NCBI RefSeq assembly: GCF_000238595.1
Contig: NZ_AGTS01000100.1
Span: 1 to 64,000, forward strand
Length of the DNA stretch: 64,000 nt
Origin: Acidovorax sp. NO-1
GTDB lineage: Bacteria > Pseudomonadota > Gammaproteobacteria > Burkholderiales > Burkholderiaceae_C
Reading direction: 5' to 3'
Both the position numbers and the translations under genes were made by a program. A model generated the notes under the pieces. The model ran no database searches. It saw only the letters and a program-made list of their open reading frames with translations, and was not told the DNA's origin. The stretch's first letter is position 1; each line of letters starts with the position of its first letter. Positions 28,778 through 31,388 of the stretch are shown here, one piece after another.

Positions 28778-28975
28778 TCATTTCTTCTTGTCCGCGCGAA
28801 AGCGCCACTCCCACAGCAGGCCCCCGACCGCGCCGATGCCGACGAGCCAGGCGCCCGCTGAAACCGTGTCCGTACCGGCAGGCGCAAGTAAATGAAATAG
28901 CACCGCGAGCGCCACTGCACCGACCACGCCAACGAGAACCGCCGGAGCAACTATTAGCGCGAAGAGCTCTTCCAT
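28778..28975 (-). CDS. Small two-helix membrane protein in an integron cassette
   Basis: This 65-residue protein begins MEELFALIVAPAVLVG. It has two hydrophobic helices (about 4-30 and 38-56) and a basic end (RFRADKKK), so it is probably an inner-membrane peptide. I do not recognise a family. It starts 7 nt after the degenerate attC core at 28982-28989, which is typical spacing for a cassette gene. Membrane peptides of unknown role are common on integron cassettes. Confidence 0.6.
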   Translation of the reverse strand: MEELFALIVAPAVLVGVVGAVALAVLFHLLAPAGTDTVSAGAWLVGIGAVGGLLWEWRFRADKKK

Positions 28976-28981
28976 GCCTGA

Positions 28982-29042
28982 GCCTTAAGGTTGAAGTCGA
29001 GCCGGGCTCGAAGGGCATCGGTACTCGAACGGCATGTTAGGC
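28982..29042 (-). other. attC recombination site of the first cassette
   Basis: This 61-bp site is read on the minus strand. It opens with the core GCCTAAC (29042-29036), overlapping the cassette gene's stop codon. GTTCGAGT follows, with a central TTCGAGCCCGGCTCGA palindrome, then ACTTCAAC and a final CTTAAGGC. The arms GTTCGAGT and ACTTCAAC are complementary at six of eight positions. Length and layout resemble the 60-bp aadA-type attC. The last core reads CTTAAGGC instead of GTTRRRY, so the crossover G is missing. Confidence 0.65.
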
Positions 29043-29375
29043 GGCATCCTCAGCGTAGCCGTCCAGTGGGCGGAAGCGAAACGCAAAGCCAGCACCTTCC
29101 ACTGCGCACTGCGCCTTGACGAGAAATTCCAGCGCTGCCGCGTCGGGCCTATAGCGAACCAGCACGTCGATGACAAAGTCGCGTCCCTTGGCATTCGGGT
29201 AACTCACGTAAACCTCTCCAGATTCGAGGAACGCCAAGTAGGTGTTTAGTTTCGCCTGTAGCACTACGAGGTGCTCGCCGTCCCAAGGCAAATGATCCGA
29301 TACCGTGAGATGGACCTTGCCTGATGCCCGGTCGATGCCTATTGCATCAATCGAAGAATGTTGCTCGACGCTCAA
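29037..29375 (-). CDS. First cassette gene, DUF6572-like
   Basis: This 112-residue protein reads from a TTG codon at 29375 (MSVEQHSSIDAIGIDRASG). It matches my recollection of the DUF6572 family (a conserved IDAIG start, LTVSDHLPW, LNTYLAFLESGEVY and YPNAKGRDFVIDV). Its function is unknown. The gene fills the cassette between the attI core and attC and ends inside the attC core. No Shine-Dalgarno precedes the TTG. The nearest one is the AGGAGG of the attI mini-frame, which stops 10 nt upstream, so coupled translation is plausible. Confidence 0.75.
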   Translation of the reverse strand: MSVEQHSSIDAIGIDRASGKVHLTVSDHLPWDGEHLVVLQAKLNTYLAFLESGEVYVSYPNAKGRDFVIDVLVRYRPDAAALEFLVKAQCAVEGAGFAFRFRPLDGYAEDAA

Positions 29376-29383
29376 CGAATGCC

Positions 29384-29460
29384 GCCTAACGTAATTTAGA
29401 CCGCAAAACCTGCGGGATAAACTGGACCTTGCGGGATATTCTGGACACGGGAACCTCCTG
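29384..29460 (-). other. Integron attI site
   Basis: On the minus strand the core GTTAGGC (29390-29384) matches GTTRRRY and marks the point where cassettes join. Towards intI, two 17-bp direct repeats (TGCGGGATAAACTGGAC at 29411-29427 and TGCGGGATATTCTGGAC at 29430-29446) lie 19 bp apart, suggesting extra integrase-binding sites like those of attI1. The site lies between divergent intI and cassettes, as in mobile integrons. Confidence 0.7.
29386..29448 (-). CDS. 20-codon mini-frame inside attI
   Basis: This short frame (MSRISRKVQF then IPQVLRSKLR) starts at GTG 29448, with a perfect AGGAGG five bases upstream, and stops at the TAG inside the attI core GTTAGGC. It ends 10 nt before the TTG of the first cassette gene, which has no ribosome-binding site. 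In class 1 integrons a comparable short frame in attI1 (ORF11) raises translation of the first cassette. I infer the same role here. The peptide is basic and may have no function of its own. Confidence 0.55.
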   Translation of the reverse strand: MSRISRKVQFIPQVLRSKLR

Positions 29461-29495
29461 AAAGTGGCTTGCAGCTTGAGGTGGCGGCCGATACA

Positions 29496-29511
29496 CTGTG
29501 TAAAAACACAG
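29496..29511. promoter_or_regulatory. LexA box upstream of intI
   Basis: CTGTGTAAAAACACAG is a perfect CTG-N10-CAG palindrome, the LexA consensus of proteobacteria, ending 13 bp before the intI ATG and next to a TATAAA stretch. SOS control of integron integrases through such a box is established in class 1 and Vibrio integrons. Confidence 0.8.
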
Positions 29512-29524
29512 GTATAAAAATTCC

Positions 29525-30532
29525 ATGAAACCCGGCACGCCTGACTTGCGCTCCCCCCGCCTTCTGGATCAGGTCCGGGAGCGCATTCGCTACCTTCACT
29601 ATAGCCTCAGCACCGAAAAGGCTTATCTGCACTGGGTGCGTTTTTTCATCCGTTGGCACGGGCGTGGCGGGGTCATGCGGCACCCGCGCGACATGGGGGC
29701 GGCCGAGGTCGAAGCGTTCCTCACGATGTTGGCAACAGAACGGCACGTGTCTGCCTCTACCCACAACCAAGCACTCAGCGCGGTCCTTTTTCTCTATCGC
29801 GAAGTATTGGGCGTCGATTTGCCCTGGCTGGAGGGCGTAAACCGCCCCGCCCAGAAGCGGCGCATTCCCAGCGTTTTGACGCGGGATGAGGTCGCTGCCT
29901 TGTTTCAGTTTCTGGATGCAGACATGCGTTTGCTGGCGCAATTGCTGTATGGCACAGGCATGCGGCTGATGGAGGGGCTTCGCCTGCGCGTCAAGGATGT
30001 GGATTTTGACCGCCATGTGATCATCGTCCGGGAGGCCAAGGGCAACAAAGACCGGGTCGTCATGCTGCCGCGCACCCTGGGGCCCACGCTGCGCTCGCAG
30101 CTGCTGCACGCGCGAGGCGTGTGGGAACAGGACCGGCAGGCGCAGCGCGGTGGTGTGCAAACGCCGCATGCGCTGGAGCTAAAGTACCCCCAGGTGGGAC
30201 ACACATGGGGCTGGTTCTGGCTGTTTCCCTCACCCACCCTTTCTGTGGACCCACGTTCGGGCGTGCAGCGGCGGCATCACTTGTTTGAGGAGCGGCTGCA
30301 GCGGGCCGTCAAGAAGGCGGTAGCCCAGGCCGGTATTTACAAACCCGTGTCTGTGCACACACTGCGCCACAGCTTTGCCACACACCTTCTGCAGTCGGGC
30401 ACCGACATCCGCACCGTGCAAGAGTTGCTGGGCCACAGCGATGTGTCTACCACCATGATCTACACCCATGTCCTGAAGGTGGCGGCTGGTGGCACGGCCA
30501 GTCCGCTGGATTCGATGCAGCACATGAAATGA
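29525..30532 (+). CDS. intI: Integron integrase IntI
   Basis: This 335-residue tyrosine recombinase catalyses cassette capture and excision at attI and attC. The SAM-like N-terminal domain includes [20 protein letters not shown]. The catalytic domain has the first Arg in [12 protein letters not shown], the HTLRHSF box, LLGHSDV and the nucleophile Tyr in TMIYTHV. The IntI-only insertion between patches II and III is present ([20 protein letters not shown]), followed by [11 protein letters not shown] as in IntI1. This separates it from XerC/D and phage integrases. It is intact and divergent from the cassettes. A LexA box precedes it, but no clear Shine-Dalgarno does. Confidence 0.95.
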
Positions 30533-30555
30533 CACGCTGCGTTGGGCACAAACGG

Positions 30556-30615
30556 AAAAATATTGACCAAATCAGCCTCTAGCTCTTGTCTATCAAGCGC
30601 TAGCAGCTATCAATA
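30556..30615. repeat. AGCGCTT-palindrome intergenic repeat, copy 2
   Basis: The right half CAAGCGCTAGCAGCTAT is conserved and the left half (CTCTAGCTCTTGTC) is degraded. It lies between the converging ends of intI and the TauE/SafE gene. Confidence 0.65.
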
Positions 30616-30632
30616 GGTGAGCATTCTCTCGA

Positions 30633-31388
30633 TCACCCCCACCTTGCCAACAGCTTCGGCACACTCGCCACCAGCATCGCCGCGCCTGACAGCGTGAGCA
30701 GCCCCAGCACCACCTGCTTGAACCGCGCCTCGCTGATGCCCAGGTACAGCCGGGCGCCGAGCAGTGACGGCACCAGCATGGCCGGAATCACCAGTGCCAG
30801 CAGGGGCAGCGTGGCGCGGGTGATGAGGCCGGTGGAGGCGTAGGTGGCGAAGGTCACCAGCAGCATGGCCAGGTTGAAGTTCTGGATGATGGCGCGCTGC
30901 ACGTCCTTGTCGAGCCCGCGCAGGGTGCACCACAGCGTGGGCAGCACGCCGGTGAAGCCGCCCAGGCCGCCCATCACACCGCCCGAGAGGCCCACGGCCG
31001 CATCCGCCACGCGGCCGCCAGCGGTGATGTGGGGAAGCTGGCGGGCCTGCAGCATGGCCGGGCACCACAGCACCAGCAGCGTGCCCAGCACGAGCTTGAA
31101 GGCGTCCATGTTCAGCCGGGGCAGCAAGGCCACACCCAGGGGGATGCCCGCCAAGCCGCCCAGCACAAAAGGGAGCAGGCGGGCTGTGTCAAAGCCGCGC
31201 CGCATCGTGGCGGCCGCAACGATCTGCCCGGTGAGTGCACCGCACACGGCCAGCACGGCGGCCAGGCGGGGCTCCAAAGTCCAGGCCCAGAAGGACATGG
31301 CCACCATGCTGAAGCCAAAGCCCGACAGGCCTTGCACAAAGCCCGCGGCCGCCGCGCCCAGCACCACCACCCACCATACGCCGTCCAT
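30633..31388 (-). CDS. TauE/SafE (TSUP) family permease
   Basis: This 251-residue inner-membrane protein has about eight hydrophobic segments and the TSUP hallmarks GFVQGLSGFGFSM near the start and GGVMGGLGGFTGV in the second half. Family members export or import sulfite, sulfoacetate and other organosulfur anions. No sulfur gene lies nearby, so the substrate is open. It is probably transcribed alone. Confidence 0.88.
   Translation of the reverse strand: MDGVWWVVVLGAAAAGFVQGLSGFGFSMVAMSFWAWTLEPRLAAVLAVCGALTGQIVAAATMRRGFDTARLLPFVLGGLAGIPLGVALLPRLNMDAFKLVLGTLLVLWCPAMLQARQLPHITAGGRVADAAVGLSGGVMGGLGGFTGVLPTLWCTLRGLDKDVQRAIIQNFNLAMLLVTFATYASTGLITRATLPLLALVIPAMLVPSLLGARLYLGISEARFKQVVLGLLTLSGAAMLVASVPKLLARWG

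Follow-up and report, generated by a model that had tools for sequence, protein, structure and literature searches.

The integron platform and its leader frame

The window (the whole 64,000-nt stretch of Acidovorax sp. NO-1 DNA that was analyzed) holds an integron platform made up of an integrase gene (intI), a LexA-like box, an attI site, and a first cassette gene. The hallmarks of an integron were found together in the window, namely, an IntI integrase, cassettes running divergently from intI, and an attI core of the form GTTRRRY. The features are as follows.

29525..30532, plus strand: intI, encoding the integron tyrosine recombinase and running divergently from the cassettes (NCBIfam integron integrase, E = 2.7e-140)
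29598..29625, minus strand: weak promoter-like TAAGCC-N16-TATAGT inside intI, candidate Pc only
29496..29511, no strand assigned: LexA-box-like CTGTGTTTTTACACAG upstream of intI
29454..29459, minus strand: the leader's Shine-Dalgarno (SD) sequence, AGGAGG, with 5 nt between it and GTG, read from the sequence
29386..29448, minus strand: leader ORF in attI, GTG plus 19 codons plus TAG, read from the sequence
29430..29445, minus strand: direct repeat 1 (TCCAGAATATCCCGCA), probable integrase-binding box
29411..29426, minus strand: direct repeat 2 (TCCAGTTTATCCCGCA), probably also an integrase-binding box, 19 nt downstream of the first repeat
29395..29405, minus strand: TGCGGTCTAAA, the box in inverted orientation, ahead of the core and pairing with repeat 2 in a centroid RNA hairpin
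29384..29390, minus strand: attI/cassette core GTTAGGC, read from the sequence, with the leader TAG on the cassette side of the crossover
29037..29375, minus strand: first cassette gene, a DUF6572 ORF of 112 aa, with its TTG (29375-29373) 10 nt after the leader stop and no SD

On the minus strand, AGGAGG (29459-29454) is followed by the spacer TTCCC, a GTG (29448-29446), 20 sense codons in all (encoding MSRISRKVQFIPQVLRSKLR), and a TAG (29388-29386) that makes up positions 3-5 of the core GTTAGGC (29390-29384). The first-pass annotation had described AGGAGG, five bases, GTG, and a 20-codon frame closing at a TAG in the attI core, and direct reading found this exact. In the 64-kb window the motif AGGAGG-N4-9-RTG is rare, with three occurrences on the minus strand and none on the plus strand. 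The upstream element CTGTGTTTTTACACAG at 29496..29511 is LexA-box-like by its resemblance to the consensus. LexA sites are known upstream of intI genes, according to PMC3108266, and the crossover point is placed after the first G of the core by the review PMC8876359.

The Pfam DUF6572 match begins at residue 1 of the first cassette ORF and at position 1 of the profile (E = 6.5e-32), and the TTG start is therefore supported. None of GGAG, GAGG, AGGA, and AAGG was found at SD distance before this TTG, the sole SD-like run seen by eye being an imperfect AGGCGG formed by the core and the next bases; the earlier description of a TTG 10 nt past the leader stop, without a ribosome-binding site, was borne out. 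A second GTTRRRY (GTTGAGC, window 29376-29370) overlaps the TTG, 14 nt past the core. At the far end of the first cassette, GCCTAAC lies at 29042 with no GTTRRRY partner within 50-150 nt, and the DNA hairpin at 29042-28975 is weak (z = -0.93), so that the attC there seems degenerate.

Conservation of the leader among related attI sites

The comparison set was drawn from 80 loci found on genome contigs (the best 80 of 558 confirmed), the 30 best loci from 399 family genomes, loci from genus searches (a 47-genome sample), and three plasmid records. From the 137 loci with an IntI match, 5 with upstream DNA too short and 30 duplicates were removed, leaving 102 upstream regions. The core set consisted of 46 upstream regions, no two of them the same, whose integrases were at least 75% identical to that of the window, and 41 of these carried a recognizable attI, defined by the core pattern A[ACT]AT[TC][GA][AC]GTT, which was not recognized in the other five (L129, L033, L031, L133, and L039); both the 75% limit and the pattern were chosen after inspection of the sites. 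By record title, the set is mostly Comamonadaceae (Giesbergeria, Hydrogenophaga, Rhodoferax, Polaromonas, Diaphorobacter, and others), some records naming only higher ranks. A second family-level search added no loci beyond those known, and in the listed matches from 399 order-level genomes the best relative outside the family stood at 68% IntI identity, none reaching 75%. The integron is patchy in the genus sample: counting the window's own genome, 6 of 47 have an integrase match with an E value of 1e-120 or lower, and the one genome marked as the same species (G412) has none at that level. The DNA upstream of intI at two genus-sample loci (L121 and L122) is common to two Acidovorax records (L060 and L078).

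In 33 of the 41 attI sites a start codon begins a frame that stays open as far as the crossover, and 28 of these also have an SD. At 27 of the 41, an RTG with an SD stood at exactly -58 from the core G, and one further site (L032) kept the frame from an SD-preceded start at -82, 24 nt further out. Start and frame were kept with an imperfect SD at three sites (L127, L102, and L100) and without an SD at two (L023 and L030). The remaining eight sites were missing the device, seven for want of a start (L021, L130, and L040; L119, L036, L103, and L120) and one by a frameshift (L025). The first-pass annotation had called the frame a built-in device of this integron lineage, resembling ORF-11 of attI1, and had proposed an alignment of related sites; in that alignment an SD, the start, and the frame were kept in most, which upholds the claim for the greater part of the lineage but not for the 8 of 41 sites without the device. 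Two of the leaderless sites (L040 and L103) adjoin cassettes that begin TTATGC, where the core gives the ATG of 86- and 201-codon ORFs. The upstream DNA of L103 is the same as that of L123, a member of the lineage on a Diaphorobacter plasmid (NZ_CP049911.1; IntI, 76%) that likewise is without the leader start.

Setting aside the eight sites without a leader and L032 left 32 aligned sites. A scan from -125 to -6 found RTG with an SD at -58 in 27 of the 32 and nowhere else; the SD 4-mer at the matching place was likewise present in 27, the window included, and the equivalent flank before repeat 2 had neither an RTG nor an SD at any of the 32. The start column reads A at 20 sites and G at 12 (ATG or GTG), followed by TG in 32/32, a figure that holds by choice because these sites were selected for a start at -58, the free count being 32/41. 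The six spacer columns from -64 to -59 vary, and the GGAG columns are kept in 26 to 30 of the 32 sites; over the 59 nt of the frame region the sites have a median identity of 0.69 (minimum, 0.49).

The leader stop fell within the core in 29 of the 33 sites with start and frame. At the other four, with cores TTCCGG, TTATGC, TTATAT, and TTGGGC, the frame runs 3 to 9 codons into the cassette. The stop triplet comes with the cassette, so the earlier statement that any inserted cassette would meet the same ribosomes is nearly true but not strictly so.

The IntI tree, built by a quick method with SH-aLRT only, covered 61 rows, of which 39 belong to the core set of 41 and 22 lie outside it; support was weak on 17 of its 58 inner branches. 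The two core rows excluded (L072 and L099) have integrase reading frames that break early; their adjoining leader frames are intact. On this tree, at 39 of the 41 sites, ATG/GTG changed at least three times, and leader presence/absence changed at least three times too. That the absences are losses we infer rather than read from the tree, since a count of changes cannot tell gain from loss.

No convincing Pc was found, either by a sigma-70-like search or by comparison across the 41 sites. On the minus strand of 28900-30650 a single sigma-70-like site scored 9/12; it lies at 30650-30623, past the 3' end of intI, and was rejected. The place of the candidate inside intI (TAAGCC/TAAACC-N16-TATAGT) has at least 8/12 matches in 26 of the 41 sites, the window (7/12 by our own count) not among them, and the conservation there may simply be coding conservation. 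Synonymous-site conservation in intI, over 24 ungapped rows, did not settle Pc.

Stop avoidance, first cassette genes, and the probable role of the leader

No in-frame stop preceded the crossover in any of the 32 aligned sites, compared with a mean of 5.5 and a minimum of 1 in 2,000 column shuffles. In frame +1, 25 of 32 sites had stops versus a shuffle mean of 22.7 (97% of shuffles at or below), and in frame +2, 7 of 32 versus 8.0; unlike the leader frame, these two show no shortage of stops. The column shuffle takes no account of how the sites are related. When the sites were thinned to at most 85% identity (n = 18), in-frame stops numbered 0 versus 3.69 (fraction, 0.004), with 16 versus 13.0 in frame +1; at most 75% identity (n = 7) gave 0 versus 1.45 (fraction, 0.135), and at most 70% (n = 6) gave a fraction of 0.26.

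The integrase boxes bear on the same point. Ten of the 32 sites have the GAGC form in all three boxes (GCTC in the inverted copy), and the others are mostly CCGC-like; the three boxes change together, as if boxes and integrase specificity co-evolve. In the GAGC sites, repeat 2, where a TAG is out of frame, reads TAGAGC in 9 of 10, whereas repeat 1, where a TAG would be in frame, reads TAGAGC in none, but TGGAGC in seven and TCGAGC in three (Fisher p = 1.2e-4, uncorrected for relatedness). Moving each site's repeat 2 box into repeat 1 would produce an in-frame stop in 9 of 32 sites, and the reverse swap in none.

The leader pN/pS was 1.11 in frame, much as in the other frames (1.23 and 0.97), and selection on the leader peptide was rejected. 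As the peptide is not conserved, it is therefore the act of translation, judged from these substitution patterns, that appears to be under selection, and not the peptide; the lack of peptide conservation is evidence against a peptide role and neutral for a leader that feeds ribosomes.

For the first gene we used the longest ORF whose start fell within 150 nt; this could be evaluated at the 26 of 33 sites with at least 250 nt of cassette sequence. At 24 of the 26 it had no SD at that start, and at 23 none at any start in the first 30 codons; in 22 of the 26 it starts 2 to 34 nt after the leader stop. The lack of an SD was rejected as a mark of leader dependence, given that leaderless sites show the same (8/8 first genes without an SD at the longest start, 7/8 at any start). 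SD-less starts are the rule there and also among long ORFs of the window, where 6 of 44 have an SD at the longest start, or 12 of 44 when every start within the first 50 codons is counted, and so are not independent support. SD-less first genes lying close to the leader stop fit with reinitiation.

The observations, then, are the conservation of SD, start, and open frame, the avoidance of in-frame stops, and the SD-less first genes near the leader stop. We consider it likely that attI of this lineage carries a translated 20-codon leader, which would pass ribosomes on to a first cassette that usually has no SD; transcription and translation of the frame, and a gain in cassette expression by termination-reinitiation, we infer. 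Ribosomes would load at the leader SD, cross the integrase-binding repeats as well as the inverted repeat, end at a stop usually supplied at the crossover by the core of the incoming cassette (TTRRRY), and restart at the cassette start codon a few bases downstream. A captured gene without an SD of its own would thereby be translated in the first position.

The conserved bases could alternatively be DNA signals, such as integrase accessory sites, upstream elements of PintI, or sites for another binding protein, with the frame a by-product. The frame does lie within attI, most invariant columns fall in the repeats or the core, and the block TGCAAGCC just upstream resembles, in our own reading, a PintI -35 on the other strand. 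We regard this explanation as unlikely, since it predicts neither an A/G toggle followed by an invariant TG, nor a spacer near-fixed in length and free in sequence, nor stop avoidance in one frame, nor the avoidance of A in repeat 1 and not in repeat 2. It is quite improbable, too, that the leader is translated but serves as a sensor or attenuator, or stabilizes mRNA via held ribosomes, instead of acting by reinitiation. Leader-ORF attenuation of the cmlA cassette gene and the proposal that small ORFs of attI1 stabilize mRNA, both related in PMC8876359, are precedents for such a role, and the inverted repeat near the frame end can fold in RNA, as the centroid structure has it. Against it, the 136-nt region folds no more stably than shuffles (z = 0.36), the peptide is not conserved, and the inverted repeat is explicable as integrase boxes because the direct repeats change along with it. 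Chance or simple common descent of a functionless SD and frame is hardly credible: the sites are related and strong thinning leaves too few for a significant stop test, yet at a median frame identity of 0.69 (minimum, 0.49) RTG stands in 32/32 sites picked for their start and in-frame stops in 0/32, RTG being a condition of neither the core pattern nor the 75% limit.

If the ribosome-feeding reading holds, a leader kept in many environmental integrons would mean that captured genes receive not only transcription but also translation from the platform. This would bear on the tolerance of SD-less cassettes and on the importance of the first position. The natural variants, with the SD present, weak, or missing, the frame shifted, or the leader absent, are ready for a direct test.

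Leader frames in other integrons

Among integrases below 75% identity, rows in which an SD frame ends in the core numbered 2 of 14 with the strict core pattern (L076 and L085) and 6 of 30 when any GTTRRRY 110-230 nt from intI was accepted, two pairs being alike so that there are four kinds; the other phases gave 2 and 2 open SD frames, counted per core with no stop required. These core-ending frames in distant lineages are suggestive only. In L076 and L146 (IntI, 66-67%), a separate 18-codon SD frame (MLDRKPRCYAAVLRSKSR) ends in the core stop, and other SD frames ending in the core stop occur in L085, L053/L141, and L149. Tentatively, cassette-feeding leaders may have arisen more than once, each phased so that GTTRRRY yields a stop, with this lineage, attI1, and perhaps L076/L146 independent. 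If so, the recombination core would double as a translation punctuation mark.

Among the 25 plasmid matches listed, the top one was a Diaphorobacter plasmid integron (76%), and the closest resistance-integron class was class 3 (IntI, 68%), whose attI3, in the one site available (L124), has no ATG, GTG, or TTG with an SD running into the core. Translational control of cassettes has so far been unraveled in class 1 integrons, as PMC8876359 puts it. The titles and abstract openings of open-access PMC articles gave no attI leader frame outside class 1, which leaves absence from print unproven, and passages of PMC10609294, PMC2945992, and PMC9668308 make no mention of one.

In attI1 of class 1 integrons, ORF-11 has an SD GGAG 8 nt from its ATG, and its frame crosses the crossover and is coupled to the first gene; its stop is usually a TAG on positions 3-5 of the cassette core, and changes to its amino acids had only a slight effect (work of Hanau-Bercot 2002, as related in the review PMC8876359). 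Frames of attI1 are described as enhancers of cassette expression in PMC8024014 and PMC9410878 as well. The class 1 site of our set (L125) has this ATG at -34, GGAG 8 nt away, 12 codons by our own count, and the core TAG. The core-supplied stop had been offered in the first-pass annotation as a difference from attI1; it is not new, because the ORF-11 frame of L125 ends at the core TAG too.

Two other attI1 frames, ORF-17 and ORF-18, are also small attI frames that raise expression of the first cassette, by the account in PMC8876359. ORF-17 differs from the leader here in that its stop lies inside attI and it uses another frame; ORF-18 prolongs ORF-11 into the cassette, and the 4 of 33 read-through cases here resemble it. 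The leader here is not ORF-11 itself, as the site is not attI1 of a class 1 integron and its position and length differ, as does the host lineage: the IntI of this platform is about 63% identical to IntI1, and the start lies just before direct repeat 1 at -58 and opens 20 codons, with AGGAGG 5 nt from GTG in the window, whereas ORF-11 in L125 starts with ATG at -34, has 12 codons (11 aa in the review), and has its GGAG 8 nt away. What the two share is a small frame with an SD in attI that crosses the crossover, a stop at the core TAG, and first cassettes poor in SDs. The leader of this lineage is thus ORF-11-like but in a differently placed frame, with a core-supplied stop already known from attI1.
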